Positions 1-47,350 of a DNA stretch of 64,000 bases are shown in pieces. A program made the position numbers and the translations under genes. The stretch lies in assembly GCA_947623455.1 (NCBI GenBank), contig OX392538.1:36998001-37062000 (forward strand), read 5' to 3'. Position 1 is the stretch's first letter. Each line of letters begins with the position of its first letter. The notes under the pieces are model-generated. The model did not search any database. It had not been told where the DNA came from and saw nothing but the letters and a program-made list of their open reading frames with translations. Source of the DNA: Mimachlamys varia (taxonomy: Eukaryota; Mollusca; Bivalvia; Pectinida; Pectinidae).

Positions 1-640
1 ATGTTGTACATCCATCGGTCATCTGGCATTAAGTTTTACTTGACAACTTCTCAGTAACAGAAAAGTCTAGGATCATGTTAATTGGCCAATTGCATGCTGA
101 TATAAATAGCTATAAAGTGTGTGAAACTGAATGAAATTTGCCCCTTTTCAAGGTCACAGGGTCAATTTTTTGAAATATTTAAAGGATTTCTGGATAACCA
201 AGAGGCATATGATGGTGATGTTTGACTTGTATCATGCCAAGATGAAGAGCTACCAAATAAGTTCGAATTAATGACTTTAACTTATGTTCAAGGTCGCAGG
301 GGTCAAACATGTTTAGAAATGTTAGATTTAAACAATTTCTTTGTAACCAAAATCTTTAGGATGGTGATACTTAACCAGTAACATGTTGGAATTTAGGTCT
401 ACCAAGTTTTAAATGAAAAAGATTCAGCCATTGTCAAGGTCACAGAGGTCAAAGATGTTAAAATCTTTTATCAAGATCTCTCAATGACTTTTTTCTGATA
501 AACCTAATGGATACAATGATAGGCCATTAGCAAGCTAGGATAAAGGGCTAACATTGAATTCTTCATTCCTTTTCTGATTCTCAAGGTCACGTATGTCATA
601 TAAATAAATCTGTAAATAGATGCTTTTGAATCAAAGACTA
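1..640. repeat. Diverged tandem repeat of about 145 bp carrying AAGGTCA motifs
   Basis: The motif AAGGTCA (or AAGGTCG) followed 2-3 bases later by a second GGTCA recurs at about 150, 290, 436 and 583. The spacing is 140-147 bp, with weakly conserved sequence between. No reading frame is supported. The copies are old, and similar motifs recur singly near 20650-20880. Confidence 0.55.
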
Positions 641-16921: not shown

Positions 16922-17094
16922 AACTATCAAATATATTTTCCCTCGTATGGCAGATTTTAAATATATTTTCACTCGTGCTACTACGAAGCCGATAAGGACC
17001 ACTAGAAAAAATAAAAATTCTTGTAACAAGAAAATAAATCAATTTCTTTCTCGTAATTACGGTTTTCCTTCTTGTTATAACGAGATTGTTTCTA

Positions 17095-17980: not shown

Positions 17981-18470
17981 AATTTCTTGATAGTAACATC
18001 CCTGCTTCTCCAACCTATGGTGTTTACATGTCGCAGTTGATTCGGTATTCCAGGGCTTTCTCTAAATATCGGGATTTTCGTGATCGATGTCGACTGCTGA
18101 CAAACAAACTAACAACACAAGGATTCGAGAGATGCAGGTTGATCAGTACTATGGGCAAGTTTTATGGTCGCCATCTTTGTCTCATTGAGAAATATTCTGT
18201 ATCTTTAAGTGATATGAAGATGGACGTTTTTGAGTATGCTCATTAGTGTGTTTACTTGTTGTGATTGACAATGATACTCGGTTCTCATTTTGAGAACTTG
18301 ATGTTTACTTGGATGTGACAAAGATTTACATGGCGGGTGTCGTCGATGAAGCAGAAGACGCTTACTCTTCCGGAACACCTGGTCTTATTCTCTTGTACTT
18401 TTGCAAGGGTCTCCATGTAAATCTTTCCTTTGTTCAATTTTTGCCCCTGGTTTATTCGAGTTTTAGTTTG
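17981..18470 (+). pseudogene. Penelope-like RT fragment, copy 3
   Basis: The same C-terminal RT segment as at 12231, identical in protein, with a stop at about 18246. Its 3' tail diverges from the other copies after about 18390 (TGTACTTTTGCAAGGG where the others have TGTGCTTTTACGAGAG) and again after about 18440. It therefore represents the original downstream copy rather than a duplicate. Confidence 0.8.
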
Positions 18471-18609
18471 TGTTATGATTTTGTTATTGTACGTCCTATT
18501 AACAGCTGAGGTCATTTTACGACAGCCTCCTGGTGTATGCTGATCTGGCATTTGGTCTTTTAATACAACGGTTTCCTTCACAATATTTCTTTAAGTTGAT
18601 CATTCGCCT

Positions 18610-19492: not shown

Positions 19493-19536
19493 ACAAACTC
19501 TTCTACATCAGCCGCTTACCTCGATCTCTACTTAAA

Positions 19537-23517: not shown

Positions 23518-26500
23518 AACTCCCCCATTTACACCATCAATGACAGCATTAGACTCCCCCATTTACAACATCAATGACAGCATTAGACTCCTCCATTTAC
23601 ACCATCAATGACAGCATTAGACTCCCCCATTTACAACATCAATGACAGCATTAGACTCCCCCATTTACACCATCAATGACAACATTAGACTCCCCCATTT
23701 ACAACATCAATGACAGCATAAGACTCCCCCATTTACACCATCAATGACAGCATTAGACTCCCCCATTTACACCATCAATGACAACATTAGACTCCCCTAT
23801 TTACAACATCAATGACAGCATTAGACTCCTCCATTTACACCATCAATGACAGCATTAGACTCCTCCATTTACACCATCAATGACAGCATTAGACTCCCCC
23901 ATTTACACAATCAATGACAGCATTAGACTCCCCCATTTACACCATCAATGACAGCATTAGACTCCCCCTAACACCATCAATGACAGCATTAGACTCCTCC
24001 ATTTACACCATCAATGACAGCATTAGAATCCCCTCCATTTACACCATCAATGACAGCATTAGACTCCCCCATTTACACCATCAATAACAGCATTAGACTC
24101 CTCCATTTACATCATCAATGACAGCATAAGACTTCCCCATTTACATCATCAATGACTGCATTACACTCCCCCATTTACACAATCAATGACAGCATTAGAC
24201 TCCTCCATTTACACCATCAATGACAGCATTACACTCCCCCATTTACACCATCAATGACAGCATTAGACTCCTCCTATCACCATCAATGACAGCATTAGAC
24301 TCCTCCATTTACATCATCAATGACAGCATTAGACTCCCCCATTTACACCATCAATGACAGCATTAGACTCCCCCATTTACACCATCAATGACAGCATTAG
24401 ACTCCTCCTATCACCATCAATGACAGCATTAGACTCCTCCATTTACATCATCAATGACAACATTAGACTCCCCCATTTACACCATCAATGACATCATTAG
24501 ACTCCCCCATTTACAACATCAATGACAGCATTAGACTCCTCCATTTACACCATCAATGACAGCATTAGACTCCCCCATTTACACCATCAATGACAGCATT
24601 AGACTCCTCCATTTACAACATCAATGACAGCATTAGACTTCCCCATTTACACCATCAATGACAGCATTAGACTTCCCCATTTACACCATCAATGACAGCA
24701 TTAGACTTCCCCATTTACACCATCAATGACAGCATTAGACTCCCCCATTTACACCATCAATGACAGCATTAGACTTCCCCATTTACACCATCAATGACAA
24801 CATTAGACTCCTCCTATCACCATCAATGACAGCACTAGACTCCTCCATTTACATCATCAATGACAGCATTAGACTCCCCCATTTACACCATCAATGACAG
24901 CATTAGACCCCTCCATTTACATCATCAATGACAACATTAGACTCCCCCATTTACACCATCAATGACATCATTAGACTCCCCCATTTACAACATCAATGAC
25001 AGCATTAGACTCCTCCATTTACACCATCAATGACAGCATTAGACTCCCCCATTTACACCATCAATGACAGCATTAGACTCCTCCATTTACACCATCAATG
25101 ACAGCATTAGACTCCCCCATTTACACCATCAATGACAGCATTAGACTCCCCCATTTACACCATCAATGACAGCACTAGACTCCTCCATTTACAACATCAA
25201 TGACAGCATTAGACTCCCCCATTTACACCATCAATGACAGCATTAGACTCCCCCATTTACACCATCAATGACAGCATTAGACTCCCCCATTTACACCATC
25301 AATGACAGCATTAGACTCCCCCATTTACACAATCAATGACAGCATTAGACTCCTCCATTTACACCATCAATGACAGCATTAGACTCCCCCATTTACAACA
25401 TCAATGACAGCATTAGACTCCTCCATTTACAACATCAATGACAGCATTAGACTCCTCCATTTACACCATCAATGACAGCATTAGACTCCCCCATTTACAA
25501 CATCAATGACAGCATTAGACTCCCCCATTTACACAATCAATGACAGCATTAGACTCCCCTCCATTTACACCATCAATGACAGCATTAGACTCCCCCATTT
25601 ACACCATCAATGACAGCATTAGACTCCTCCATTTACATCATCAATGACAGCATTAGACTCCCCCATTTACACCATCAATGACAGCATTAGACTCCCCCAT
25701 TTACACCATCAATGACAGCATTAGACTCCCCCATTAACACCATCAATGACAGCATTAGACTCCTCCATTTACACCATCAATGACAGCATTAGACTCCTCC
25801 ATTTACATTATCAATGACAGCATTAGACTCCTCCATTTACACCATCAATGACAGCATTAGACTCCTCCTATCACCATCAATGACAGCATTAGACTCCTCC
25901 ATTTACACCATCAATGACAGCATTAGACTCCCCCATTTACACCATCAATGACAGCATTAGACCCCTCCATTTACATCATCAATGACAACATTAGACTCCC
26001 CAATTTACACCATCAATGACATCATTAGACTCCCCCATTTACACCATCAATGACAGCATTAGACTCCTCCTATCACCATCAATGACAGCATTAGACTCCC
26101 CCATTTACACAATCAATGACAGCATTAGACTCCCCCATTTACACCATCAATGACAGCATTAGACTCCTCCATTTACACCATCAATGACAGCATTAGACTT
26201 CCCCATTTACACCATCAATGACAGCATTAGACTCCTCCATTTACACCATCAATGACAGCATTAGACTCCTCCATTTACACCATCAATGACAGCATTAGAC
26301 TCCCCCATTTACACACCATCAATGACAGCATTAGACTCCTCCTATCACCATCAATGACAGCATTAGACTCCCCCATTTACACCATCAATGACATCATTAG
26401 ACTCCCCCATTTACACCATCAATGACAGCATTAGATTCCCCCATTTACAACATCAATGACAGCATTAGACTCCTCCATTTACACCATCAATGACAGCATT

Positions 26501-29029
26501 AGACTTCCCCATTTACACCATCAATGACAGCATTAGACTCCTCCATTTACACCATCAATGACAGCATTAGACTCCTCCATTTACACCATCAATGACAGCA
26601 TTAGACTCCCCCATTTACACCATCAATGACAGCATTAGACTTCCCCATTTACACCATCAATGACAGCATTAGACTTCCCCATTTACACCATCAATGACAG
26701 CATTAGACTCCTCCTATCACCATCAATGACAGCATTAGACTCCTCCATTTACATCATCAATGACAACATTAGACTCCCCCATTTACACCATCAATGACAT
26801 CATTAGACTCCCCCATTTACAACATCAATGACAGCATTAGACTCCTCCATTTACACCATCAATGACAGCATTAGACTCCCCCATTTACACCATCAATGAC
26901 AGCATTAGACTCCTCCATTTACAACATCAATGACAGCATTAGACTTCCCCATTTACACCATCAATGACAGCATTAGACTTCCCCATTTACACCATCAATG
27001 ACAGCATTAGACTTCCCCATTTACACCATCAATGACAGCATTAGACTCCCCCATTTACACCATCAATGACAGCATTAGACTTCCCCATTTACACCATCAA
27101 TGACAACATTAGACTCCTCCTATCACCATCAATGACAGCACTAGACTCCTCCATTTACATCATCAATGACAGCATTAGACTCCCCCATTTACACCATCAA
27201 TGACAGCATTAGACCCCTCCATTTACATCATCAATGACAACATTAGACTCCCCCATTTACACCATCAATGACATCATTAGACTCCCCCATTTACAACATC
27301 AATGACAGCATTAGACTCCTCCATTTACACCATCAATGACAGCATTAGACTCCCCCATTTACACCATCAATGACAGCATTAGACTCCTCCATTTACACCA
27401 TCAATGACAGCATTAGACTCCCCCATTTACACCATCAATGACAGCATTAGACTCCCCCATTTACACCATCAATGACAGCACTAGACTCCTCCATTTACAA
27501 CATCAATGACAGCATTAGACTCCCCCATTTACACCATCAATGACAGCATTAGACTCCCCCATTTACACCATCAATGACAGCATTAGACTCCCCCATTTAC
27601 ACCATCAATGACAGCATTAGACTCCCCCATTTACACAATCAATGACAGCATTAGACTCCTCCATTTACACCATCAATGACAGCATTAGACTCCCCCATTT
27701 ACAACATCAATGACAGCATTAGACTCCTCCATTTACACCATCAATGACAGCATTAGACTCCTCCATTTACACCATCAATGACAGCATTAGACTCCCCCAT
27801 TTACAACATCAATGACAGCATTAGACTCCCCCATTTACACAATCAATGACAGCATTAGACTCCCCTCCATTTACACCATCAATGACAGCATTAGACTCCC
27901 CCATTTACACCATCAATGACAGCATTAGACTCCTCCATTTACATCATCAATGACAGCATTAGACTCCCCCATTAACACCATCAATGACAGCATTAGACTC
28001 CTCCATTTACACCATCAATGACAGCATTAGACTCCTCCATTTACATTATCAATGACAGCATTAGACTCCTCCATTTACACCATCAATGACAGCATTAGAC
28101 TCCCCCATTTATACCATCAATGACAGCATTAGACTCCTCCTATCACCATCAATGACAGCATTAGACTCCTCCATTTACACCATCAATGACAGCATTAGAC
28201 TCCCCCATTTACACCATCAATGACAGCATTAGACCCCTCCATTTACATCATCAATGACAACATTAGACTCCCCAATTTACACCATCAATGACATCATTAG
28301 ACTCCCCCATTTACACCATCAATGACAGCATTAGACTCCTCCTATCACCATCAATGACAGCATTAGACTCCCCCATTTACACAATCAATGACAGCATTAG
28401 ACTCCCCCATTTACACCATCAATGACAGCATTAGACTCCTCCATTTACACCATCAATGACAGCATTAGACTTCCCCATTTACACCATCAATGACAGCATT
28501 AGACTCCTCCATTTACACCATCAATGACAGCATTAGACTCCTCCATTTACACCATCAATGACAGCATTAGACTCCCCCATTTACACACCATCAATGACAG
28601 CATTAGACTCCTCCTATCACCATCAATGACAGCATTAGACTCCCCCATTTACACCATCAATGACATCATTAGACTCCCCCATTTACACCATCAATGACAG
28701 CATTAGATTCCCCCATTTACAACATCAATGACAGCATTAGACTCCTCCATTTACACCATCAATGACAGCATTAGACTTCCCCATTTACACCATCAATGAC
28801 AGCATTAGACTCCTCCATTTACACCATCAATGACAGCATTAGACTCCTCCATTTACACCATCAATGACAGCATTAGACTCCCCCATTTACACCATCAATG
28901 ACAGCATTAGACTCCTCCTATCACCATCAATGACAGCATTAGATTCCCCCATTTACACCATCAATGACAGCATTAGACTCCCCCATTTACACCATCAATG
29001 ACAGCATTAGACTCCCCCATTTACAACAT
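23518..29029. repeat. 34-bp satellite/minisatellite array, about 160 copies
   Basis: The unit reads ACTCCCCCATTTACACC followed by ATCAATGACAGCATTAG (34 bp). Variants include CTCC for CCCC, a shortened CTCCTATCACC form, TACAACATC and TACATCATC. The unit length is not a multiple of three and stops occur in every frame, so it is not coding. Rare variants recur 2240-2307 bp apart, showing a large internal duplication. The array ends abruptly at the DIRS element. Confidence 0.97.
24430..29000. repeat. Higher-order direct duplication of about 2.3 kb inside the 34-bp array
   Basis: Rare variants appear in the same order twice: the CATCATCAATGACAACATT pair at 24437 and 26743; ACTCCCCTCCATTT at 25552 and 27859; CCCATTAACACC near 25731 and 27968; TACATTATCAATG near 25804 and 28044; TTTACACACCATC near 26310 and 28582. 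The offset falls from 2307 to about 2240 after two units are lost in the second copy near 27960, then rises to about 2272. Confidence 0.85.
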
Positions 29030-29450
29030 CACCTGCAAGGCGGACAAAGTTCGTAAAGCCCCGTTCAGAGCAGAGGTAAGTCTGTCCTGAATGTCGGCCT
29101 TTTCTGTCTCTGATGTCCGACCCTCAGGCAGATCGGAAACCCTATATAGGCATACAGTAAAGTAGTCTATATACGACAGAATTTGGATGGAAAGACGCAG
29201 CAGTCTTTCCATCTTGTGGTGTTCCTTGGAACCGAACACCACCTGATCCACCGATTTACCAGGCCAGGCAGCAAGCTCTCTCGACTCCAGTTTAACTGGC
29301 TGAGGGGCGAGCAAACCATCATGTGTAGCAAAATCAATGGAACGAACTTCTGACAAATCGCTGACACATAGCTGCAACCCAGTAAACCCAGGCGCGCGAG
29401 TTGCAGAAGCATTCTTCTCCAGAACTCGGGACTTGGCAGTGGTCAGTGCT
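29030..29450 (-). repeat. Inverted copy of DIRS gag, left arm (421 bp)
   Basis: Reverse complement of 30831-31251 at about 99% identity. On the minus strand it encodes the same peptide segment (LCVSDLSEVRSIDFATHD and onward to NGALRTLSALQV), with only a couple of substitutions. Homology stops sharply at 29030 and 29450, leaving a 1380-bp spacer between the arms. Confidence 0.97.
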
Positions 29451-31598
29451 GGTTTGGCACGGCCAAGGGTCGAATTGACTGGGAACGCCCGTAAGCTTTC
29501 GAGCTTGCCTCCGGGTAGGGACTACCGGTCGCCGGTCGTTGACTCTGTCAATGATCCCGGCATTCCAAGCGGTATTGTAGGTAGACACGGCATTGAGGCT
29601 GGGCCTGTGCCTTCGGGTTCAGGTCCTAGTGGCTGTACGGACTTTCTTTCGGGATTGTCCGTATCCACTGGGATTAGTGATGCGCAGCTCACTAATTCCA
29701 GCGTCTTTGCTGGTCAAGCTTTCCCTCCCGGTCAATTGCCTGGCCCCGGTCCTATTAGGCCGGGTCCACCTTTGCCAGGGAACCCGGTGGTTTGTCCATC
29801 CGGGTTTGGGTTTGCTGGACAATCAGACGGTTATCGGCCTCCGATTTCCCAAGGCTTCGGGTATACGGGCATCCGCGGGCATCCATCCCTTGGCCACCCT
29901 TTGGGTTGGGTTCCAACAATATCCCGGCAGTTATGGACAGGGTCCATACATGTCTGGGTTTCCGCTTAGAGGGAGTGGTGGTCCACCCTCGCCTTTCGGG
30001 CAGGGTAGCCAGCCCCAGGCTCAGGCAGGCCAGTTTGGCCAATTCTGGGGTCACTCCCAGCCCACGGGACCTGTCCCTTTCCCTCCGGGATATGGGGTTG
30101 ACCCCATGCGGTTTCCTTTTTGGAACCCATGGGGCTTGGTCTCTCCCTCGCGGAGACGGGTTAGCGGCAGCTACGTTGACCCCCCCCCCCCTCCACGTTC
30201 TGCCGCATCGGGGGCCGTTATGGCCGGTCCAAAAAAGGTTTGCCGGACCTTTAGGACTTCTGCCTCCAGGGCAGTCCCTACCGCCTCTGATTCCAAGGAT
30301 AGGGTTGTGGCTTCTAGTCCTAAACCCACGGCGACGGTTGTTAGGCGCTCTGCGCCTAAGCGCCGTTATGTGGAGCCCCCGCTAGAGCGTTCGCTTGAGC
30401 TGGCTCCATTGGCCGACCCTTATCTCCCACATCCTGTCGCTACTTACGGTGGTGACGGAGTGGAGGATATGGATTGCGAGGGCGTGGGTATGGCAGAGGA
30501 TGAGGACGTTGTTCGTCTCTCTCCGGGGTGCTCTGACATTGACGCTGGTCAGTCGGAGTCGTCTGAGGACGATCTTCATGAGGTTCCGGCCTCTGAGGAA
30601 GATACCTTAGGAGAGGGCGACTCTGAGGCTGTTGAGGTCGAGGCCCAACAGGTCCTTTCCGGGATGCGAGGCCTTAGGGCCGATGTATCCCGGATTCTCG
30701 GAGAGCAGGTATGCCCGCCACCTGCCGCGTCCTCTGTTCCCGAGTCCACTACCCTTTTGGGATCCCTAGTGGCTCCTCGGTCATCCGCGCAGGCGGATCG
30801 ATCTCTGCCCGAAGGCACAATCGTGTCTGCAGCACTGACCACTGCCAAGTCCCGAGTTCTGGAGAAGAATGCTTCTGCAACTCGCGCGCCTGGGTTTACT
30901 GGGTTGCAGCTATGTGTCAGCGATTTGTCAGAAGTTCGTTCCATTGACTTTGCTACACATGATGGTTTGCTTGCCCCTCAGCCAGTTAAACTGGAGTCGA
31001 GAGAGCTTGCTGCCTGGCCTGGTAAATCGGTGGATCAGGTGGTGTTCGGTTCCAAGGAACACCACAAGATGGAAAGACTGCTGCGTCTTTCCATCCAAAT
31101 TCTGTCGTATATAGACTACTTTACTGTATGCCTATATAGGGTTTCCGATCTGCCTGAGGGTCGGACATCAGAGACAGAAAAGGCCGACATTCAGGACAGA
31201 CTTACCTCTGCTCTGAACGGGGCTTTACGAACTTTGTCCGCCTTGCAGGTGTCCTCGCTCGTGAACCTCGTGTTGGCCAGGCGTTTTTCAGTTTTGAAAA
31301 ATCGCCCGGTCGATGAACCTTATCGGTCCCGGTTGTTGACTGCCCCCTTTTCGGAGGGTCCCTTCCTTCTGTACAGAAGGATTTGAAGGAGGACTCGGTC
31401 GCCTCTGCACTTTTAGTGAAGAGGATTCAGACTGAGAGGGCCAGCACCTCGCAGGGGTCAGCGCCCCCCAAGAAGAGGGCTAAGACTTCGGTTCCGCAGA
31501 CTCATGCGCAACCTAAGCCTAAGCCTCCCTTCAAGGGCAACAAGGGGAAAGGTAAGAAGGGCAAAAACCCTCCTGGGGGCAAGAAGAAGGGTTCCTGA
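29451..31598 (+). pseudogene. DIRS gag-like gene, frameshifted
   Basis: Three successive frames form one gag-like protein. Frame 3 from 29451 is a Pro/Gly-rich region (QLPGPGPIRPGPPLPG, about 29735). Frame 1 from about 29900 has GFQQYPGSYGQGP, then FGQGSQPQAQAGQFGQF, a basic patch (VVRRSAPKRRYV, about 30340), an acidic Ser-rich stretch (SESSEDDLHEVPASEED), and the conserved LQLCVSDLSEV...VVFGSKEHHKMERLL segment. Frame 3 again from about 31368 gives a very basic C-terminus (KPPFKGNKGKGKKGKN) ending at 31598. The first shift lies at about 29890-29910, the second at about 31368. The native N-terminus is lost where the inverted arm joins at 29450. DIRS gag proteins are presumed to bind RNA; here that rests on the basic tail. 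Confidence 0.8.
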
Positions 31599-33135
31599 CT
31601 CCCTTCTTCCCTCCTTGAGCGTAGACGACGGGCTTGGTCTAGGGGAGTGCAGTTCTCTCGACTCAAGCTCCGGTCCTTCTCCCGCAGAATTAGACTTAGG
31701 GTCAGCAGACGGTTCTCTTGCTTGGCAAGGGCTAGATCTTCCGCGACCAGATCTTCCTGTGGGAGGGCGTCTCTCCTTTTTCCTGCCGGAATGGAAGGAA
31801 ATAACGGAGGATGCATGGGCATTGTCTGTGGTATCGGAGGGATTAGGTATCCCTCTGTTACAGGATCCCCTCTTGTCGGCAGAGCCAATTTTCTTTCCTC
31901 CACCGGGGGATCGGGAAAAGGCTCTGGCTATCCAGGAGGAAGTAAGGACAATGCTAGTCAAGGGCGCGGTCGAGGAGCTACCAGTGTTGGGTTGCACCCC
32001 CGGCTTCTATTCCAGAATGTTTCTGGTGAGGAAGAAGTCCGGGGCATGGCGTCCCATCATCGATCTAAGCGCCTTCAACAGGCACGTAGATTCTCCTCAC
32101 TTCAAGATGGAGACTCCTCGGGGCATCATTGCTTCCGTGAGAGACGGAATGTGGGCAACTTCAGTAGATCTGAAGGACGCTTACTTCCACATCCCCATCA
32201 GGAAGTCGGCACGGAAGTACCTTCGGTTCACATGCAACGGGAAGGTCTTCCAGTTCCGGGCCATGCCATTCGGGCTCACGACTACTTTGGTGTTTACCAA
32301 GCTGCTGCAGGTAGTCGTGGGTTTCCTGCATTCCAGGGGAATAGATGTGCACATCTATTTCGACGATTCCCTCATGCTCCACCTTGTGAGGGAATCTTTG
32401 GTGCAGGATACCCGTCTGGTCCTGAAACTTTTGCTCAGAGTCGGCTTCATTCCGTCCAGAGAAAAGTCGGAGGTTTCCCCTACTCAGGATTTCGTCTTCC
32501 TGGGGAACCGTTTCAATACGGTTCAGGGCATTGCCCTTCCACCGCTGGAGAAGTACGAGAAAGCCAGGGATTTGTCCCTGACCATCATCGGCAGGTCTCG
32601 CGTCCAGGTGCGTTGGTTCCTCAGTTTTCTGGGTTATCTCAACGCCCTGGCAGATGTGGTCCCCTTAGGGAGACTTTACATCAGGCCTCTTCAGATGTTT
32701 CTCCTTGCCAATTGGGTCCCTTCTTCAAGGGATTGGGAAGCCTGGCTTCCTCTCACCAAGTCTGTCAAGGAGTATGCTCGATGGTGGACCATTCAGGGAA
32801 ATGTTCTCCAAGGGGTTCCTCTGTCCAAGCCGGCCCCCACTATGACTCTGTATACGGATGCGTCCATGACAGGGTGGGGGGCTTACCTCGACGGTCATTG
32901 CCGGTCGGGGGAGTGGTCTGGGGAACAGCTCTCAGAGCACATCAATGTGCTCGAGATGAGAGCTGTTCTGTTAGCTCTGCAGTCTCTCCGAGAGATCCTG
33001 CAGTCCAAGGTGGTTTGTGTGGCTACGGACAACTCTACAGTTGTCGCGTATCTGGAGAGAGAGGAGGGACCAGGTCTCACATTCTGTGTGCCCTCGCTAT
33101 TCGTGTTCTTCTTCTGTGTCAGGAGATGCAGCTGA
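31504..33135 (+). pseudogene. DIRS reverse transcriptase-RNase H (frameshifted near its end)
   Basis: A 543-codon open frame overlaps the gag end by 95 bp. RT blocks: RKKSGAWRPIIDLSAFNRH (about residues 178-196), TSVDLKDAYFHIPI with the first catalytic Asp, FRAMPFGLTT, VFTKLLQ, and IYFDDSLM, the YxDD box of this family. RNase H follows: LYTDASMTGWGAYL, INVLEMRAVLLAL and ATDNSTVVAYLE give three of the four acidic residues. The fourth (GKLNVLADTLSRR, about 33160) lies in another frame, because a GAGAGAGAGG run at about 33052-33063 has gained two bases. Frame 3 then continues through RPHVDLFATSLNNQLP to a stop at 33599. The TTTLVF segment differs from the usual TAPLVF. This is the best-preserved gene of the element, but as it stands it lacks a complete RNase H. 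Confidence 0.9.
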
Positions 33136-33599
33136 CGATCCATGTCAAGCATCTTCCCGGCAAGTTGAATGTTCTGGCGGATACTCTTTCCAGGCGCCGC
33201 CAGCCGGTATTGACAGAATGGCAATTGAACAGGCCTCACGTAGACCTTTTCGCCACTTCCCTGAACAATCAACTGCCAACCTTTGTCTCTCCGGTTCCAG
33301 ATCCGAGGGCTTGGGCCGTGGACGCTCTATCTCTGGACTGGGAGGGAATGCATGCATATGCATTTCCTCCCTTCAACCTGGTGGGCAGGGTCCTACAGAA
33401 GTTTCAGGAACATCATTGCTCCCTTATTCTGATAGCACCCATGTGGCCGAGGCAGCCATGGTTTCCAGGGCTGCTGTCGCTCCTGGTAGAAGAACCACTG
33501 GCTGTTCCTGTCAGGTCGAACCTCGGACAGCTATTTCCAGCGTGCTGTCTTTTCATGGCAGAGCAGAGGTGGGCTCATCCCCATCTCTGTCTGCCTTGA
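33136..33599 (+). pseudogene. DIRS RNase H/connection tail, out of frame
   Basis: Continuation of the RT-RNase H protein in frame 3: QLTIHVKHLPGKLNVLADTL, NRPHVDLFATSLNNQ and LILIAPMWPRQPWFPGLL, ending at 33599. It is separated from the upstream part by the 2-bp dinucleotide-run expansion. Confidence 0.8.
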
Positions 33600-34355
33600 T
33601 CAGAGGGTTTGGGCTGGATAGGCCCAGGGTTCGGCAGTTGGCTCCGCAGTGGAATCTTGCGCTGGTGCTCGAGTCTTTGATGCGGGCACCATAAGAGCCA
33701 TTAGACTCTGCTTCCTTAAAGTTTGTCACTTTTAAGGCGGTGTTTCTAATAGCCCTGGCCTCGGGACGTAGGAGGAGTGAGATTCACGCGTTGTCGTCTC
33801 ACCCTTCATGTCTTAGATGGTCTAGGAATTACGCTGCCGTAACTCTCCTCACCGATCCAGCCTTTATGGCTAAGAATCAGGTGCCTGGCTTTTCGCCCGA
33901 TCCTATCAATGTTCCATCATTGACTTCCTTTGTTGGCTCAGAAGAGAGAGATAGGTTACTGTGTCCCTGTAGGGCTCTTAGGTTTTATCTCGATAAAACC
34001 AAGGGGGGGCGGGGTCCTCGATCTCGACTGTTTTTGCATCAAGCAGGGTCAACATGATATCTCCTCTCAGTCAGTGTCAAGGTGGATTTGTCAGGTAATC
34101 AGGTATGCCTATGATCACTCTGACGATCAGGTTCGGGCGCTTTATAAGGTAAGAGCTCACGAGGTAAGGGCCCTTGCGGCGTCATGGGCCCTCCTCAACG
34201 GCTCCTCCTTCCAGGAGGTCATGTCTGCGGCATTTTGGCGGGGACAGACCACATTCACAGACTTTTACCTAAGGTCGTTGTCATCCCATTCTGATGGGCT
34301 ATACTCATTGGGGCCGGTTGTGGTGGCACAGTCTGTTGCTGTGCCTCCTCAGTAG
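33588..34355 (+). pseudogene. DIRS tyrosine recombinase, C-terminal catalytic domain, broken
   Basis: Frame 2 gives GFGLDRPRVRQLAPQWNL, then a stop (TAA at 33692) and SLKFVTFKAVFLIALASGRRRSEIHAL, which holds the first catalytic Arg. A frameshift at about 34045 leads to frame 3, with VRAHEVRALAASWALL (the HxxR pair), AFWRGQTTFTDFYLRSL (Trp and the nucleophilic Tyr) and a stop at 34353-34355. This family inserts circular element DNA by strand exchange rather than with an integrase. The N-terminal core-binding (SAM-like) domain of about 100 residues is missing between the RNase H tail and the catalytic part, so there is an internal deletion as well as the stop and frameshift. The catalytic residues themselves are all visible. 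Confidence 0.85.
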
Positions 34356-34568
34356 TAGGTGATGGTCCGTTTTTAATCAGTATGCTATCAGGCATCACGG
34401 TGGGTTACCTCCCCGTGTCACGTGGAGTTGCTTTTTCACCACTTTTTAATTATGGGGTGTTTTTGGGGGTTTGTCCTTTCTGGCCTTCCATCTCCTAGCT
34501 TGAGCATGTCTCGAGTTCCTCCATCAGCCTGATCTGGATTCGGAGTCACCACTGCGGTAAGACGAATT

Positions 34569-34661
34569 CGCATACTAAAGTTATGGTAATTATTACTGAA
34601 ATGAAATTGAGGTTTTTTAGGTAAAACCAATTTTCATGGTGTAATACTTACCATAACTTTA
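34569..34661. repeat. DIRS right-end inverted repeat, inner copy
   Basis: GAGGTTTTTTAGGTAAAACC followed by AATTTTCATGGTGTAATACTT is the reverse complement of the sequence at 34836-34897. The segment is itself partly palindromic: GCATACTAAAGTTATGGTAA at its left pairs with TTACCATAACTTTA at its right. Confidence 0.8.
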
Positions 34662-34835
34662 TGGAGTCCCACCCTATATTCCTCCCCTTGCCTCCTCATC
34701 TTTGGTTGTCTTTTGGCACCATAAAAGGTTTTTGAGGACGGGAGATCACGCTGCGGCTCTGTCGTAGTTGGGGGAAGGCGGGATATTTGAATCTTTTGTT
34801 TTGGGCTACAAAGATGGGTGTAGGTACTATATATT

Positions 34836-34897
34836 GCATACTAAAGTTATGGTAAGTATTACATCATGAAAATTGGTTTTACCTAAAAAACCTCAAG
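34836..34897. repeat. DIRS right-end inverted repeat, outer copy
   Basis: Begins ACTAAAGTTATGGTAAGTAT and ends CCTAAAAAACCTCAA. It pairs with 34606-34661 and is followed at once by an unrelated tandem repeat, which marks the element boundary. Confidence 0.75.
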
Positions 34898-35125
34898 TCA
34901 GTAAGTTTGGAACGTTAACTGCTGCCTTATTCTGAGCACAGGAACCCGCGAATTGGTCACTGTCTTTAATTTGTGTGCGAGTCTTATAGTCGATCTATAT
35001 ATCCTATTCAGTAAGTTTGGAACGTTAACTACTGCCGTATTCTGAGCACAGGGACCCGCGAATTGGTCACTGTCTTTGTGTGCGAGTCTTATAGTCTATC
35101 TATATATCCTAGTCAGTAAGTTTGG
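34898..35125. repeat. Tandem repeat of about 110 bp, two full units
   Basis: TCAGTAAGTTTGGAACGTTA starts units at 34898 and 35008, and the third unit is cut off at about 35125. Both full units share GACCCGCGAATTGGTCACTG-like text. Confidence 0.85.
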
Positions 35126-35216
35126 AGGGGGATGGGGGTAGTCTTGGGATATATTGAAGTATGCGGACTGTAAACTGTAACTAATTCTCATAGTCTTGTG
35201 AAAGCGAACAATTTGT

Positions 35217-35246
35217 AGGGGGGGTGGGGGTGGGGGGGGGGGGGTT
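35217..35246. other. Guanine-run tract, potential G-quadruplex
   Basis: Three or more G runs of 5-13 bases separated by single T residues. By composition it could fold as a G-quadruplex on the plus strand. Confidence 0.5.
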
Positions 35247-35299
35247 ACTGCGCATCGGCTTCCCTTGGGTAATATTTCAAAAACTTCACAACAGAAATA

Positions 35300-35389
35300 A
35301 AACCGGGTATACGATGACGTAACACATGCTACACCATTTAAATTTTGTAATAGATACAGTATGACGAAAAAATGAATTAAACTGCATCA
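35300..35389 (-). mobile_element. Inverted partial retrozyme copy starting at the ribozyme cleavage site
   Basis: On the minus strand the sequence from 35389, TGATGCAGTTTAATTCATTT and onward, matches the plus-strand sequence immediately 3' of the predicted hammerhead cleavage positions at 35864 and 36204. The match continues to about 35300 (GTAACGTCATC, ACCCGG). Homology stops upstream of TGATGC, where the ribozyme core would begin. Confidence 0.65.
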
Positions 35390-35394
35390 ATTAA

Positions 35395-35785
35395 AACTTA
35401 AAACTGCAATAAATATAAGCATTACATTCATACCTGTTGTAATTGGTCCGTGCACCAGCTTGGGGTCTCAAAAAGGGAGTAAGAAGCCATCTCTGGGTAG
35501 CCACTGTCGCCGAGAAGATGCGTACGTACTGCAGGAATATGATTATTTTCAAAGAGTACACGTACACCACTTTCTGCCAAAATTCTGGAGTCATGTGTTG
35601 ACCCTGGCCACTTTGCAACAATGTCCAACAACTTGTACTGGGCATCAAACACAACTTGGACATTTAAGCTATGGTAGTGATGTCTATTTACATATTCATT
35701 TTCGTTGATGGTCGGTGCTATAATTTGCACATGGGTTCCGTCTATTGCTCCAACTACGCCAGGGAACCTGACCCTTCTGTTTCTA
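35395..35785 (-). pseudogene. Harbinger/PIF-type DDE transposase fragment
   Basis: On the minus strand the frame reads FPGVVGAIDGTHVQI (first catalytic Asp), IIAPTINENEYVNRHHYHS, NVQVVFDAQYKLLDIV, WPGSTHDSRIL and THLLGDSGYPEM (second catalytic Asp), typical of the HARBI1/DDE_Tnp_4 family. It stops near 35428 after LFETPSWCTDQLQQ, so the third acidic residue and the C-terminus are absent. An AACAG/GTATGA junction there could be a splice donor, but no downstream exon was found. No partner Myb-like protein or inverted repeats are seen. Retrozyme-derived sequence flanks both sides in opposite orientations, so this is a fragment captured within a rearranged locus. Confidence 0.85.
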
Positions 35786-35826
35786 CATTAGTTTAGAAAT
35801 TTTGGATTCCTATCTTTTGGCCCCCA

Positions 35827-35870
35827 GCATCACTGACGAGTCCCAGAAGGACGAAACAGTTGTATAATGC
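35827..35870 (+). ncRNA. Type I hammerhead ribozyme, copy 1
   Basis: Order: stem I strand GCATCA, core CTGACGA (35833-35839), stem II GTCC/GGAC with loop CAGAA, core GAAA (35853-35856), very short stem III ACAG/TTGT, cleavage triplet GTA (35862-35864), stem I return TAATGC. All invariant core bases are present. Stem I has one mismatch. Confidence 0.85.
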
Positions 35871-36166
35871 AGTTTAATCAATTTTTTCGGCATACTGTAT
35901 CTATTACTAAATTTAAAAGGTGCAGATCTGTGTGATAGACTCTGCTGGTGGATTTTTTAGTCCCCGAGGTTTGCTGGAGCCTCCATATCCAAAGTTATCT
36001 CATTTGAGTAATGACACGGTACATACTATACACATTTTCGTAGTACACGATTTGAAATTATACAAAACTAGTTAAATTTTACTTCTAAATTCAGAAATTA
36101 ACGGGGTTTAACGCACCTAACCTTTCTGTTTCTACATTAGTTTAGATTCCTATCTTTTGGCCCCTA

Positions 36167-36210
36167 GCATCACTGACGAGTCCCAAAAGGACGAAACAGC
36201 TGTATGATGC
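36167..36210 (+). ncRNA. Type I hammerhead ribozyme, copy 2 (perfect)
   Basis: GCATCA, CTGACGA, GTCC-CAAAA-GGAC, GAAA, palindromic stem III CAGCTG, GTA cleavage triplet ending at 36204, TGATGC. Stem I is a perfect 6-bp pairing. Such minimal stem III hammerheads are known from metazoan repeats and may work best as dimers. Confidence 0.92.
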
Positions 36211-36300
36211 AGTTTAATTCATTTTTTCGGCATGCTGTATCTATTACTAAAATTAGAAGGAGCATCATGTGTGTGTAACGTCATCTTCAACTACCCGAAT

Positions 36301-36700
36301 AAGCTAAAAAATAACTTACATGTTTCGCTTGAGCTTTTATGACGAAAACGAATCATTCAGCGAGATCAAGCATAACCAATATCTACAAACTGCACAGCAT
36401 TTTTATGTTTGATGATAAAAAAAAAAGATTTTTATTTCATCATGTCGCTTTGTCCTCATTTCGGCATTAGAGTTGATCGCATTGTTGACGTCACGCTAAT
36501 GTCGAACCATTGTGACGTCACGATGTGTAAGATAGATAGAGTTTTCTTACATTGCTTTCCTGCATAAGTAACCTCTATACAACATGGCGAGATATGAGTG
36601 AAGGTTTTATCTTTATCGAATTGAACAATATTGGAGAAGAAAACTGATGGTTTACTGGTACATTTATTACACTCAAAGAGAATTTAATGATACAGAAAAG
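36301..36700. other. No gene; paired CRE palindromes
   Basis: Non-coding. Contains two TGACGTCA sites (see the next entry) and a short ACATGGCG context near 36583, with no open frame worth calling. Confidence 0.4.
36486..36520. promoter_or_regulatory. Two CRE-like palindromes TGACGTCA
   Basis: Perfect TGACGTCA at 36486-36493 and 36513-36520. These match the CREB/ATF site. No gene start is evident beside them. Confidence 0.35.
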
Positions 36701-36712
36701 GTCACATACTAC

Positions 36713-37268
36713 GTACATATAGACATGAATGATTGAGAATATCATAAAAACAACAGTATAATGTTCACGTACATATAGACATGAATAATTGAGAATATCA
36801 TAAAAACAACAGTATAATGTTCACGTACATATAGACATGAATGATTGAGGATATCATAAAAACAACAGTATTATGTTTACGTACATATAGACATGAATAA
36901 TTGAGAATATCATAAAAACAACAGTATAATGTTCACGTACATATAGACATGAATGATTGAGAATATCATAAAAAACAACAGTATTATGTTCACGTACATA
37001 TAGACATGAATGATTGAGGATATCATAAAAAACAACAGTATTATGTTCACGTACATATAGACATGAATGATTGAGAATATCATAAAAACAACAGTATTAT
37101 GTTTACGTACATATAGACATGAATAATTGAGAATATCATAAAAACAACAGTATAATGTTCACGTACATATAGACATGAATGATTGAGAATATCATAAAAA
37201 CAACAGTATTATGTTCACGTACATATAGACATGAATGATTTAGAATATCATAAAAACAACAGTATTAT
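36713..37268. repeat. 56-bp minisatellite, array 1, about 10 copies
   Basis: The unit starts CACGTACATATAGACATGAA and ends CAACAGTATAATGTT. It is highly homogeneous, with a few A/G and T/C variants. Confidence 0.95.
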
Positions 37269-37400
37269 GATCATTGAAACAAAAGCTTGTTTGCGATATA
37301 GAAATTGAATTGAAATTTAACAGAGCAAAACCAAAATTAAATAAGCAAGTTTTTGGTTCGAGTGATAGTGATACCATAAACTTGTTTGGAAGAGATCGGT
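37262..37400. repeat. Flank of array 1, duplicated at 38951
   Basis: TATTATGATCATTGAAACAA through GAGTGATAGTGATACCATAA follows array 1 and recurs after array 2 (38951-39075). Array plus flank therefore forms one duplicated block. Confidence 0.85.
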
Positions 37401-37734
37401 TGAAAACTGTAGGAGGGAGATCTTTGCATTTTAAAGTGCATTACCGGGAGGAATTGATGAAAACACATCAAAAAAAGTTCTGACGTATTCTACAAAAACC
37501 TCAAAATTGCATCATATATGAAGTTCCAAAGGCCAATAAATTGGCATAAAAAGCGTTGATTTTCATAAACGTACACGAAAGTTTATCATACAAAACATGC
37601 TGTAACTTACAAAAATCAAATCGTAAACGATTTAACCAATGACAAATAACATAGCTATACCAGCTTCTTCATACAGCACTGTCAAAAACACACATACTGG
37701 TACTACAACAACATAGATTCACTATATTCCTCAT

Positions 37735-38025
37735 ACAGCTATATGTAAGTCCAAAATAAACAAAACCAGTACTTCAATAACATAGTTTTACTAACTTTCT
37801 CATGCAGCTATATGTAAGTCCAAAATAAACAATACCAGTACTTTAACAACATAGTTTTACTAACTTTCTCATGCAGCTATATGTAAGTCCAAAATAAACA
37901 ATACCAGTACTTTAACAACATAGTTTTACTAACTTTCTCATGCAGCTATATGTAAGTCCAAAATAAACAATACCAGTACTTTAACAACATAGTTTTACTA
38001 ACTTTCTCATACAGCTATATCACAG
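37735..38025. repeat. 69-bp tandem repeat, four copies
   Basis: The phrase TATGTAAGTCCAAAATAAAC recurs every 69 bp (about 37742, 37811, 37880, 37949), with TAGTTTTACTAACTTTCTCA between. Confidence 0.9.
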
Positions 38026-38319
38026 CTGCTTGAGTTTCTGTCAGTAAATAATAAGTTTATACGTGTGAAATGAGCCTGCCATTACAGTAATGTAATTGAA
38101 ATATACCAACGTTATTTCTAAACGATTTTTGCGAGTCTGTCGTGCAATTCTCAGACGAAACACCGACATTTCCTATTAAGTTAGATATTAATCCACCACT
38201 ACATGCTAGTTTCGTTTCATCTAACGATAATATCTCGGTCGCATTGATGGGGTTTTTATGACGAGCGTACCGGCAATTTTTTTAAGCAAGCCGTCATGGC
38301 CTGAACATATGTGACGTCC

Positions 38320-39367: not shown

Positions 39368-40501
39368 TTAACCTGGTGGTGCAAGTATTTCTCCAGGAAA
39401 TACGTTTTCGATTGTATACCTTGAACAAGGTTTTAGATCTCCTGCTCGTAAACAGTATAACTCCGAATCTGTCTCCCTGAGGTACGCTGCAAGTATGCCA
39501 AAACCACTAAGAGTATTTATCAGGGTATCACAGCTCTTCAACGTGTAGAAATCTAAAAATTGCTTAAGAATTCCTGTATTTTGGTCGCATTTCGATTGCC
39601 TGTCCATATGTGTAATTCTGCCGGGAGTGTCAATTATGTTTGTAGGATAACGGAGTCTAGCCTGTTCCTTCACGCTATTTGTATCAGATGCAATGAAAAT
39701 GTCATATTCATCCCTGTTAAGTTTGTCCAAATAATTCCAAAGAATGTCCAATCTTACTTTTGGTCGAGAATCGTCCCCGGGCATGTTAGGATTCCCTCCA
39801 ATGCGTACGTGAGCACAAGCGAGCTTAGGTCTTCTACGATGGAGATTTTGATCTTTTAATGCATGTTTTAGCAGAGGCGATGGTTTGAAGAGGAAATTAA
39901 AAAGTTGTTTGTACATATCAGGAAAGGTCAATTTTGTTATCCACGGGATTTCAGTACCAATATTTGACCTTTTTCTGAATTCCTCAGTAAAATCCCAGTT
40001 CATGCGAAGAAAACTGACATCATGGTGAAAATAGGTGTCGATGTCCAGGCTACCATTCAAGTACTTCCTTATGTTTCTAGAGTTGTGATTAGAAAGATCC
40101 TGATAGGAACTTGTTCTGTTCAAAAGTATGGATTTATTATAGCGCCAGTCAAAGTTTACAGGGACGAGGTACTTCTCAAGTTCGCATGGCTTGTCATAGT
40201 GGATGAGAAAACGCCGTTTTGTTAAAAGAGATATAGCCACTGTAGAAAGAATACCCGACATCCGGTCGGACCAGCCACCACAACTCCCTCTGTTGGTTTG
40301 GCTGCAATCGTACACAATATACTTTTTTCTTTGATCACCATATGTTGTTGGTATGGATTGTTCGAGAAGTTTTTCAAAAGAGCTCTGTCCTGTACATGTA
40401 TCTAAGAAGCGATGAATTGATCTTGGGATAGAAGTAGTTCCCCAAAGGAGAGTGATACACATAACGCACATAACCAGCGAGAGAAACACCAGGCGGCAGC
40501 A
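39368..40501 (-). CDS. Fucosyltransferase-like type II membrane glycosyltransferase, terminal exon
   Basis: This is the clearest host gene. A 377-codon stretch from Cys35 of the open frame to the stop at 39368. Features, numbered from the upstream Met at 40603: hydrophobic segment CRLVFLSLVMCVMCITLLW (36-54), a probable signal anchor; RGSCGGWSDRMSGIL (105-119), resembling the N-terminal donor-side motif of GT-B fucosyltransferases; HVRIGG (265-270), like the HxRxGD motif; DIFIASD (301-307); and DFYTLKSCDTLINTLSGFG (351-369), typical of FUT8/NodZ-like proteins near the C-terminus. Several N-glycosylation sequons (NKS, NRT, NGS) fit a Golgi lumenal enzyme. I start the exon at 40501 because TTCAATCTCAATTACTATTTACAG-type sequence just before it is a strong splice acceptor; the 34 upstream codons would then be intron. 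The first exon is not found. No stops or shifts are seen. Fucosyl transfer is inferred from motifs, and the acceptor is unknown. Confidence 0.7.
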   Translation of the reverse strand, partial: CCRLVFLSLVMCVMCITLLWGTTSIPRSIHRFLDTCTGQSSFEKLLEQSIPTTYGDQRKKYIVYDCSQTNRGSCGGWSDRMSGILSTVAISLLTKRRFLIHYDKPCELEKYLVPVNFDWRYNKSILLNRTSSYQDLSNHNSRNIRKYLNGSLDIDTYFHHDVSFLRMNWDFTEEFRKRSNIGTEIPWITKLTFPDMYKQLFNFLFKPSPLLKHALKDQNLHRRRPKLACAHVRIGGNPNMPGDDSRPKVRLDILWNYLDKLNRDEYDIFIASDTNSVKEQARLRYPTNIIDTPGRITHMDRQSKCDQNTGILKQFLDFYTLKSCDTLINTLSGFGILAAYLRETDSELYCLRAGDLKPCSRYTIENVFPGEILAPPG

Positions 40502-40525
40502 CTGTAAATAGTAATTGAGATTGAA
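40502..40525 (-). other. Predicted 3' splice acceptor
   Basis: On the minus strand a pyrimidine-rich tract ends ACTATTTACAG directly before codon TGC at 40501. It decides the exon start of the glycosyltransferase over the upstream ATG at 40603. Confidence 0.6.
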
Positions 40526-40603
40526 ATAAGTAAGCATTAAAGACTTCTGAAAAATATGATATTTTTCACTGTGGAAAACATGACACTTTCCTGATTTGAC
40601 CAA

Positions 40604-41703
40604 TCAAGACACTGCTTACAAATGACGCCAAGTACCGGTTAACGTAACGTTATGAAGGCTTAATTTTTCAGATCTTTTGCGTATTAATGTTGAAATATTA
40701 AAATTAATGGGGAAAACACAACGTTTGATTTAACTTTAATTTCAAGGAAGCTGGGGAACGATGCAGTTCTGATGTTAAATAATGCAAAGTGTCAACAGCG
40801 TGATCATAAGTTGTGGTACAAAAATAACATTAATAGGAGAGAGTCAAGCCCATATCATGCAAATAGTGAGAGTGATAAAAGAATTACTCATAGCGATGTT
40901 GATATTTTGAAATATGTATAAGTGGCGATAAAACAACTCTGCAGTTCCCCTACTATCGAACTTTTCTGATTTGTTTGAGACTTGTTGCTAATTTTTTGAT
41001 ATTTTCTTTTTCAAAGAATTGGCCCTTACTCGTGAAATATATTTGGTATTACTGAAGACACTGTAAGATTGTTTACCCTTTGTTTTAGCATATGACATTG
41101 TGGTTGTTTTTGGTTGAAACATCGCATTCCGTTTTTTGAAATCTGAAATCCTCTTTCACAATCTTTAACCAAGTTTGGAAGAACTCTCTTTAACAGCTTT
41201 TGAGAAGAATTCAAGAGTTTACAGAAACATTTGAAGTACGTTGCGATAGAAAAAGACCCATTTACTTACAAAATTATGAATACTATATACGTACAATATT
41301 TCTACGTAATTTAGCCATTATCAGTGTAGATTATGCCACGTCAATTGAAGACAGCCATCCGTTACTTGTTACCATAGAAACCGTCATGCTTGGTAGACAT
41401 TTTCAACAGGCTTCTTTGTGACGTAGTTAGGAGAGGAATTTCATCTTCAATCGAATGTCATGGGAGTTATCTGCGGACGGCGGTCTCGAGATCATCTGAT
41501 CCTCCTCATGCACCATCTGCGCATTTGTAACATATGCATGGTTGAACATATACAAGTGTCCGGTAACCTGATTTATAACTAGTATAAGAAATCATTTGAG
41601 TATGTCCAAATATTAAAACTACAAATGTCTAAAATGTATATGGATTGGGCAGAATTCTTGTTACAGTCATTGAAATCTTACAGGGAAAATATTTTAGGCT
41701 CTA
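40604..41703. other. No gene seen
   Basis: AT-rich. Short open frames on both strands lack recognisable domains. This may be intron or upstream sequence of the glycosyltransferase gene. Confidence 0.35.
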
Positions 41704-41747
41704 GCATCACTGACGAGTCGTAGAACGACAAAGCAGATGTATGGTGT
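41704..41747 (+). ncRNA. Degenerate hammerhead ribozyme, copy 3
   Basis: GCATCA, CTGACGA, stem II GTCG-TAGAA-CGAC with compensatory change, then AAAG instead of GAAA, ATGTA at the cleavage triplet and TGGTGT returning stem I with G-U pairs. The downstream text (CTCAATTCATTATTT) aligns with the retrozyme. The core change should abolish cleavage. Confidence 0.6.
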
Positions 41748-41759
41748 AGCTCAATTCAT

Positions 41760-43330
41760 TATTTATCTCAACTGCTTCTTATATTCTTAATTATAAATCT
41801 GCTATTCTCGTATTTTTGTACAATTTTTTTAATATATTCAAATTTCAATGTCAAGTCAGAATAATTTGGGATATAAAAGCTAACTTACCGGGATTTGTGA
41901 TTTCCATCGTCTTTTCAATATCCAAAGTCACTTGTATTATCCGCCTTGTCTGATTAAATGCTTAACTAACTATTTTTTGCCTTATTATATAAGCACAGAG
42001 TAGATTTCAACTTTGTATCACAATACAATATAAATCACAATTCTGAATGTCGTTGTTTCAACAGAAAACCGTTAGTTCTAACTCACTCACAAAATTCAAA
42101 ATCTTCAAGTTACACATTTATTGAACTCGCATCACCAAAATAATCAAATATTATCCGCATATATATTCCTCCTTGATATAATTTGTCTTTTTTTTTAAAC
42201 ACGTAATGTATGGTTACCCGTTCCGCACTTTACGTGGAACAGATGCTTACCAAATGAATCAACGACACCTCCTGCTGTGTATACATCAATATATTACTTT
42301 CACATACTATAGTCTATTTCATAATGGCTTTTATTGATTGTTGTCTGTATAGTCTCTTTCATATTTGTTCTCGGCACCAGGGTGTGACATGAATGCAGAC
42401 AGATTGTAAAAAGATAATAAAGAAGACAGAGTTTATATCTCTTTTCGTACTATCATTAATATGATTTGATCATAACCAACCGTTTCCAATTTTCCAAAAT
42501 GAATCAATCTTGCAAAAAAAGACGAAATTAGAAAATATTTAAATCATGTTTATCAAGCGCAGTATTGTTTGGCAATTACTTGTTACATATATATCTACGA
42601 ATTGGAATTTAATTGCTTGCGTTGCGTTTAGTGTAAAATAAAACCTGTGCCGCACACCAGAACAGTGCGTGGTACATAATTATGTCTTAAAATTTTAACA
42701 AAGGGAGAAACATTGTCCTTTTGGTTTAAATATTTAAGCGAGAACTTTGCAGGGCTTCATTTTTAAAGAATCTAACGGTTTAAAATCATTTTAATTAGCT
42801 GAAATAATTTACTTTTTGATACTTATACAAAATACAATTATACAATAACGACACTCTCTAACTCCTTGCCCGGGTTTCCACTTGCCCCAAAACTATATCT
42901 GGTTTCCCATACCAGACATCTTTCTGTCAAAAAGGCTAAGTCTGGTGTTAGGGCCAGTGGAAACTCGGGCTAGCAAACTCACATCTCGCTTTAAGGCACA
43001 TAGACTTCCGAATCCACTTCTTAAATTTGATAATTATAACGAGCTAAACATACTTACTCAGTTAAAGTAGCCAGTCCTACCGTCTATCCATTTTTTTTAT
43101 CTTATAACCTGGCAAACACAATGGAAGGAAAATACTCTTTCATGATCAAAGGCGTAAGACAGGTAATTCTACCCTCGATAATTTCAAATTAGGGAAAATT
43201 GACAAAAATCGGTTGTTTGAAACAAATACCTGGGTGGAATTTTCATATCTTTAAAAACTATCTGCCATCAAGTTAACGAACCAATAACAGTCTTTATCCT
43301 TCCACTAGTGAGAATGTAATTATTCGATTG
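41760..43330. other. No gene seen
   Basis: AT-rich non-coding DNA. An open frame at about 42882-43070 shows no domain. Confidence 0.4.
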
Positions 43331-46362: not shown

Positions 46363-46660
46363 TGATGAATAGCAACCATGGGTTCTACGCCACCTCCGTC
46401 CCTCCCTCTTTATTTATAGTAAATCCCTCCCTGGCGGGATGGATTGGTGAGGGAGCAGTGACGGACGAGGGACTGACCTAATTCGTGACCTGATCATTTA
46501 TAGGAGAGATTGCCTCCATGACATGTAATTTGTTTAATTTCTTAAATTTATTAGAAGGTACATAGCCGTAGTGAGGGATGAGGGAGTACTTGCGTCAAGT
46601 TTATTTTTAGAGCAACCGGTTCGATCCCCTTCTACACCACTGTTAAAATGAATAAGAAAA

Positions 46661-47350
46661 TACCGAAGCGTTAACATATCATAATCCAAACTCAAAATCG
46701 ATTAAACCAATGGCAAAATATAAACAAAGGAAAAATTAACATGGAGACCCTTGCAAAAGTACAAGAGAATAAGACCAGGTTTCGGGAGAGGAAGCGTCTT
46801 CTGCTTCATCGACGACACCCGCCATGTAAATCTTTATCACATTCAAGTAAACATCAAGTTCTCAAAATGAGAACCGAGTATCATTGTCAATCACAACAAG
46901 TAAACACACTAATGAGCATACTCAAAAACGTCCATCTTCATATCACTTAAAGATACAGAATATTTCTCAATGAGACCAAGATGGCCACCATAAAACTTGC
47001 CCACGGTTCTGATCAAACAACATCTCTCGAATCCTTGTGTTGTAAGTTTGTTTGTCAGCAGTCGACATCGATCACGAAAATCCCGATATTTAGAGCAAGC
47101 CCTGGAATACCGAATCAACTGCGACATGTAAACACCATAGGTTAGAGAAGCAGGGATGTTAGTATCAAGAAATGGAAAGATGACGATCGGAAAATTGAAA
47201 TCATCACGTTTATCGTATAGCTTAGTAGTAAGCTGTTCATGTTGGTCGTAGTTTAAGTAGAGATCGAGGTAAGCAGCTGATGTAGAAGAGTCTGTTGTGT
47301 CCTTTATTTCAAGTTCAGAAGGGTATATACGATCGACGTGGTCAGCAAAC
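46661..47350 (-). pseudogene. Penelope-like RT fragment, copy 5, minus strand
   Basis: The minus-strand reading starts just after the YIDD box (FADHVDRIYPSELEIKD) and runs through SAAYLDLYLNYDQH, DKRDDFNFPIVIFPFLD, YGVYMSQLIRYSRA and MKMDVFEYAH to a stop at 46909. The conserved 3' tail follows, to about 46661. It is 5' truncated and lacks the active site. It lies between the 52-bp direct repeats. Confidence 0.8.

Follow-up and report, generated by a model that had tools for sequence, protein, structure and literature searches.

The 64,000-nucleotide stretch analyzed here (the window; Mimachlamys varia, contig OX392538.1, positions 36,998,001 to 37,062,000 of the forward strand) harbors on its plus strand two type I hammerhead ribozyme motifs, hammerhead A (35827..35870) and hammerhead B (36167..36210), which lie within an element extending from 35766 to 36287 (copy A+B). 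Two relatives of this element are found in the same window: copy C, a 77-nt fragment on the minus strand (35313..35389), and copy D, a degenerate retrozyme on the plus strand (41692..41764). Between C and A+B is a decayed Harbinger-type (DDE_Tnp_4) transposase exon on the minus strand (35434..35765; PF13359, E 1.8e-19), which is read in three separate frames.

Hammerhead B scores 38.8 bits against the Rfam covariance model RF00163, above the gathering score of 34 (E 2.9e-6), and all of its core bases and stems are intact, in agreement with the sequence-only reading that had called this copy perfect; the predicted cut follows position 36204. Hammerhead A falls below the gathering score at 29.0 bits (E 0.0051 in the window and 5.5e-5 in 701 bases), and is weakened by one stem I mismatch in a count of pairs. 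A strict type I descriptor matches the window exactly twice, at A and B, and once across 60 simulated windows. A loose hammerhead pattern, weak by itself, gives 10 matches where 4.36 are expected, and 3 of 100 shuffles reach 10 or more. The tandem type I hammerheads proposed from sequence are thus confirmed by RF00163 and the strict descriptor, each with its full complement of invariant core bases. The paired stems I and II and the palindromic stem III claimed for both motifs hold completely for B, but A has one broken stem I pair and a stem III loop that is not palindromic. The predicted scissile bonds lie between 35864 and 35865 (A) and between 36204 and 36205 (B), and bear out the claimed spacing of 340 nt. 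Stem covariation was considered as further support and rejected, as it amounts to one two-sided change in three sequences, a level reached by 156 of 500 shuffles.

The repeats around A and B align from 35766-35934 to 36115-36275 (170 alignment columns, 85.9%), and the element therefore consists of one full unit (35766-36114) and one partial unit (36115-36287), or 1.5 units; copy A+B is matched to a genomic tandem unit in a single alignment (84.5%). The repeated unit that had been placed at 35775..36300 is therefore real, but comprises one full and one partial copy with somewhat different borders. It is also noncoding, as had been claimed: we find no ORF of at least 100 amino acids in the element, the longest stop-free run being 52 codons in six frames of 35766-36297. 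The GC content of the element units is 36-39%. On the plus strand, the stretch between the two cuts (35865..36204) corresponds to an expected linear or circular RNA of 340 nt, and is followed by an 83-nt tail (36205..36287) that runs from the second cut to the 3′ end of the element. This end, set by comparison with other genomic copies, lies at cut+83, within the range of cut+80..87 found for the other copies. An alternative 3′ end at the TACCCG of 36292-36297, with the tail outside of the unit, was discarded, since genomic copies end at 36287 and the tail lies within the unit.

Copy C extends exactly from the cut site to cut+81, and just upstream of its start it matches A and B at only 5-6 of 30 bases. 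A 9-bp direct repeat flanking C, of a quality reached by 0.9% of random pairs, was taken to count neither way, since it rested on an unsupported 3′ end. In copy D, the hammerhead (41704-41747) has a broken core, in which GAAA reads AAAG, and a two-sided change in stem II; its tail resembles that of the array-bearing family described below. Furthermore, window positions 34150-38083 have a segmental duplicate elsewhere on this contig, ≈400 kb distant (locus L017; ≈97% identical, with 34150-37273 in one piece), which includes a hammerhead pair at 340 nt. This duplicate reaches well beyond the element and is thus not independent evidence. It bears directly on the proposal that C, the Harbinger exon, and B are a single DNA transposon with terminal inverted repeats that resemble retrozyme tails. 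The inverted arms are 68 nt long and 87% complementary, a transposase exon lies between them, and the whole block is found again at L017; however, L017 is a duplicate that continues far past the block, such tails occur at many loci that lack the exon, and C, B, and A stand at similar distances from one another (4, 4, and 5 informative sites). We disfavor the single transposon on these grounds and regard it as highly improbable.

We next consider the fold of the RNA. For isolated hammerhead B, the minimum-energy fold is a competing structure. As a separate observation, in the folds of copies C and A the start of the cut product (36205-36240 in B) pairs with a CTGTATC ≈30 nt downstream, in competition with stem I; the minimum-energy fold of B is different. 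When folded as circles, the window unit (35865-36204) is matched or exceeded in stability by 12 of 60 shuffles and a 377-nt tandem unit from locus L062 by 14 of 60, with 56% and 62% of the bases paired, respectively, and energies inside the shuffle range. The high RNA stability expected of retrozymes is thus not seen in either unit, in contrast to the retrozymes of PMC7229834; highly self-paired RNA is given in the retrozyme papers as typical rather than exclusive.

To place the element in its genomic context, we searched the genome (975 Mb, 71 contigs) with RF00163, which returned at least 40 matches at E≤1e-3, with 35 over the cut-off (73 of 133848 candidates scored), and with a 532-bp element query, which returned at least 41 matches (40 of 9109 candidates scored). 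The element belongs to a large, dispersed, multicopy family. No RF00163 match was found in 14 control genomes. Searches of viral and prokaryote genome collections also came back empty. Among the 36 copies selected by DNA similarity (L042-L079 minus two duplicates), the core is intact in 33, and every strict hammerhead criterion holds in 21; the core of the dominant subfamily reads CTGAAGA, with A at the free core position in 32 of the 36. None of L042-L053 and L055-L069 appears among the 40 RF00163 matches listed, and a census made with the model only may therefore undercount the family. The 340-bp periodicity noticed in the window has counterparts elsewhere, and the sequence-only reading is not refuted on this count, since copies are found genome-wide and some exceed one unit: one further locus, L019, carries two hammerheads 350 nt apart, and the L062 tandem unit measures 377 nt. 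Separately, L051 and L052, which lie ≈15 kb apart, are almost identical in both retrozyme and flanking sequence and represent a recent local duplication. An ordinary satellite or a chance hammerhead-like motif, with no ribozyme role, would fit the weakened copy A, the broken copy D, and an RNA that is not unusually stable, but this explanation is hard to reconcile with the near absence of descriptor matches from simulated windows, the many strictly intact dispersed copies, and the clean control genomes; we consider it very unlikely.

The ends of the copies were mapped on the real 377-nt tandem unit from L062, using fetched loci that are top-scoring rather than random. Five array loci and the segmental duplicates L017, L052, and L054 were left out before counting, and neither L001-L008, which duplicate the positions of L009-L016, nor L040-L041, which correspond to the window and to the L017 place, were used; L075 and L076 have a common flank and were both kept. 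In the remaining 87 matched stretches, the 3′ end falls at cut+80..87 in 65, the most common positions among the 59 with a complete end being 84 (16 copies), 83 (11), 86 (11), and 85 (8). Past this point the flanks vary among copies, and multi-unit copies simply read on into the following unit, which makes the 3′ end both fixed and internal to the unit. The 5′ ends, in contrast to this fixed point, are scattered over the unit, and copy length varies from mere fragments up to 949 nt, with the longest at 888-949 nt. No 5′ start falls between -38 and -10 within the hammerhead, which is uninformative in a sample partly chosen for having a hammerhead.

Of 69 copies with a complete 3′ end, three (C, L056, and L060) have their first base right at the cut, where a uniform distribution predicts 0.18 (P 9e-4; P 0.006 using the local rate), and we regard this excess as suggestive. 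It raises the possibility that copy C is an integrated linear RNA released by the hammerhead, which starts at the scissile bond because the template ended there. The abrupt loss of similarity to A and B upstream of C agrees with this, as does the consideration that a structure-induced stop would fall at the foot of stem I and not at the bond. Ordinary stopping could nonetheless produce the same pattern, since +13, +47, and +61 are equally populated with three copies each (two of those at +47 being L032 neighbors) and further ends fall at -9, -8, -4, and -3; moreover, the loci sampled are the top-scoring ones, and the direct repeat of C was read from a 3′ end at odds with those of the other copies. 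We consider this origin of C rather unlikely. Direct-repeat flanks scoring at least 8 are found in 6 of 59 copies vs 0.72 expected, with two of the six being L032 neighbors within one local repeat; L046 is flanked by a 17-bp direct repeat with one mismatch. For A+B and C in the window, no secure target-site duplication was found. Target-site duplications of metazoan retrozymes, when present, are longer than 4 bp.

Taken together, these features lead us to interpret 35766-36287 as a decayed copy of a nonautonomous, ORF-less retrozyme that was probably moved by a trans-acting reverse transcriptase (RT), most likely Penelope-like, a reading to which we assign a probability of roughly 70%. The hammerheads themselves, the existence of many copies, and the contrast between an internal 3′ end that is fixed and a 5′ end that varies are all seen directly; from them we infer a cycle of cleavage, circularization, and copying by such an enzyme. 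Tandem copies would be transcribed, the hammerheads would cut the RNA once per unit, and the unit-length RNA would be circularized by a host ligase, as has been shown by others in other animals. An RT acting in trans, most likely from a Penelope-like element (PLE), would then use this circular RNA, or a multimer, as its template at a nicked target; it would begin copying within the unit, ≈84 nt past the hammerhead cut, and stop after a variable distance. That the 3′ ends are fixed and the 5′ ends vary points to target-primed reverse transcription, and the position of the 3′ end within the tandem unit points to an enzyme that initiates internally on an RNA that is circular or multimeric. In the published retrozyme model, circular RNA is the template and PLEs are strong candidates for the enzyme; how animal retrozymes move, and whether they do so via PLEs, is left open there (PMC7229834).

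The closest comparison is with the anole PLE PAc, the one PLE for which the RT start has been tested in vitro, where the hammerhead cut falls 26 nt inside the ORF and RT starts chiefly at 111-118 nt (PMC11167929). By subtraction, the cut-to-start spacing in PAc is 85-92 nt, which partially overlaps the 80-87 nt (mode 84) found here and comes from a single published PLE; this similarity supports PLE mobilization, but does not prove it. PAc further resembles the scallop family in an internal RT start fixed after the cut and in tandem and partial-tandem copies (PMC11167929). PAc could insert in vitro independently of its hammerhead (PMC11167929), which cautions against treating the cut as essential. 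An AC-rich RNA end like that of PAc was not found in the element (14 of 24 and 11 of 24 bases). The sequence-only reading had tentatively suggested a donor enzyme from the many Penelope-like RT fragments nearby. The position of the 3′ ends, close to the PAc value, lends such a link indirect support, but no sequence common to the retrozyme and the RT fragments of the window, including the 3′ tail, was detected, and none of seven window RT fragments has a Pfam match at E 1.

A LINE-type enzyme might instead have moved the same retrozyme by recognizing the RNA 3′ end, as for a SINE, with the hammerhead along for the ride. A constant 3′ end combined with 5′ truncation of variable extent is the usual mark of target-primed retrotransposition generally and is also compatible with LINE-driven elements; the window contains, at ≈49.4-52.7 kb, a LINE-like RT that includes an endonuclease domain, and 15-bp duplications in Nematostella repeats have been reported as LINE-like (PMC4918200). 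What speaks against a LINE is that the 3′ end lies internal to the tandem unit, that no sequence in the window has a common tail at the sensitivity used, and that the cut-to-end spacing matches a PLE value. We judge LINE mobilization unlikely. Copy ends are a kind of evidence that the published retrozyme model, as set out in the available text of PMC7229834, was without, and whether 3′ ends cluster as far from the cut as in a PLE is a prediction that can be counted in any genome.

The window element is a new member of an already known class, the metazoan retrozymes, known from mussels (PMC7229834), and the match to these drawn from sequence is supported by the tandem type I hammerheads, the ORF-less repeated unit, and the dispersed family. 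It shares with the metazoan non-LTR retrozymes a GC content below 50% and a mollusc host as well, and its unit of 340-377 nt compares with ≈350-390 bp in mussels and lies within the ≈150-450 bp expected of the tandem repeats (PMC7229834); a 3′ end fixed relative to the cut, here 80-87 nt after it, is not mentioned in the available text of that paper. PLEs encode an RT and an endonuclease (a telomerase-like RT, usually with GIY-YIG), whereas the element here could use PLE functions at most in trans. PLE hammerheads are minimal and lack helix III (PMC7761336), whereas the element here has a two-pair helix III. The hammerhead satellites of newt and axolotl are likewise type I with a short palindromic helix III (in hammerhead B, ACAGCTGT), but have one pair in this helix vs two pairs and an invertebrate host here (PMC7229834). 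The palindromic helix III of hammerhead B could allow action as a dimer. The Schistosoma Sm-alpha and W elements also carry a hammerhead within a small, dispersed, noncoding repeat (PMC8490949). A tRNA-derived SINE of the Sm-alpha type has Pol III A and B boxes; in contrast, when both strands of 35700-36320 are scanned with simple patterns for these boxes, nothing resembling a B box turns up, and the A-box-like matches number only two, each on the minus strand. A literature search by sequence terms returned nothing related, and neither did one for hammerheads in scallops.

Finally, 5 of 31 loci selected with RF00163 hold tandem hammerheads at a 45-nt spacing between retrozyme-like flanks. Allowing up to four substitutions, the arrays contain 19 (L011), 11 (L024), 8 (L025), 20 (L026), and 17 (L033) units; L026 has 18 when only up to three are allowed, and Tandem Repeats Finder gives 19.0 copies for L011 (L011:1860-2720). 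Of the array units, 37 of 75 satisfy all strict hammerhead criteria, and many L024 units look dead, judging from a changed cleavage triplet. In L025, L026, and L033, units differ within a locus at 5.3-5.6 of 44 positions and between these loci at 5.45-5.6, with L011 and L024 tighter inside (3.0-3.2 of 44). Since divergence within and between the three loci is the same, expansion of the array seems to be older than dispersal in at least these three. Flanks on both sides are common to L024, L025, L026, and L033; the limit of their 3′ homology is less clear, lying 86-98 nt past the last cut in the three pairs among L024, L025, and L026 but closer to it in several of the alignments that involve L033 or D. 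In the main texts of openly available papers, we found no report of natural 45-nt hammerhead arrays; the one paper that speaks of a “tandem hammerhead” deals, in its available passages, with bacterial pairs (PMC3088659). We tentatively propose, as a possibility that we hold at somewhat less than even, that a PLE-type enzyme starting ≈84 nt past the cut copies scallop retrozymes, and that a sister family spreads as arrays of 8-20 hammerheads at a 45-nt spacing. If so, the RNA of an array would cut itself up into 45-nt pieces that consist of hardly anything but the ribozyme, and the ribozyme itself would be the repeat unit of a mobile element; if transcribed, the arrays would be a natural source of uniform RNAs of very small size and would represent an extreme among retrozymes.

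Several other features of the window were noted. The RT-like fragments that had been described as Penelope-like form one family (6907-7632, 46645-47350, 60303-61024, 19534-20097, and two more) with similar 3′ ends, and one listed relative carries PF26215. An RT element (PF00078) spans 29581-34355 and resembles DIRS-like elements; near 29.0-29.5 and 30.6-31.0 kb, one and the same peptide can be read from either strand. A satellite at 23519-29031 has a 34-bp unit in ≈163 copies, and a large tandem segmental duplication pairs 7109-9302 with 12233-14418 and 9290-12735 with 15060-18485 (96-97% identical). Long hairpins at 11344-11449, 17122-17224, and 59306-59389 match miRNA families below the cut-offs and look like MITE-type palindromes rather than miRNAs. 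A fucosyltransferase-like ORF on the minus strand (39368-40603) has scallop proteins as the best of 49 listed homologues, led by Mizuhopecten (66% at best) and followed by Pecten, Ylistrum, and Argopecten.
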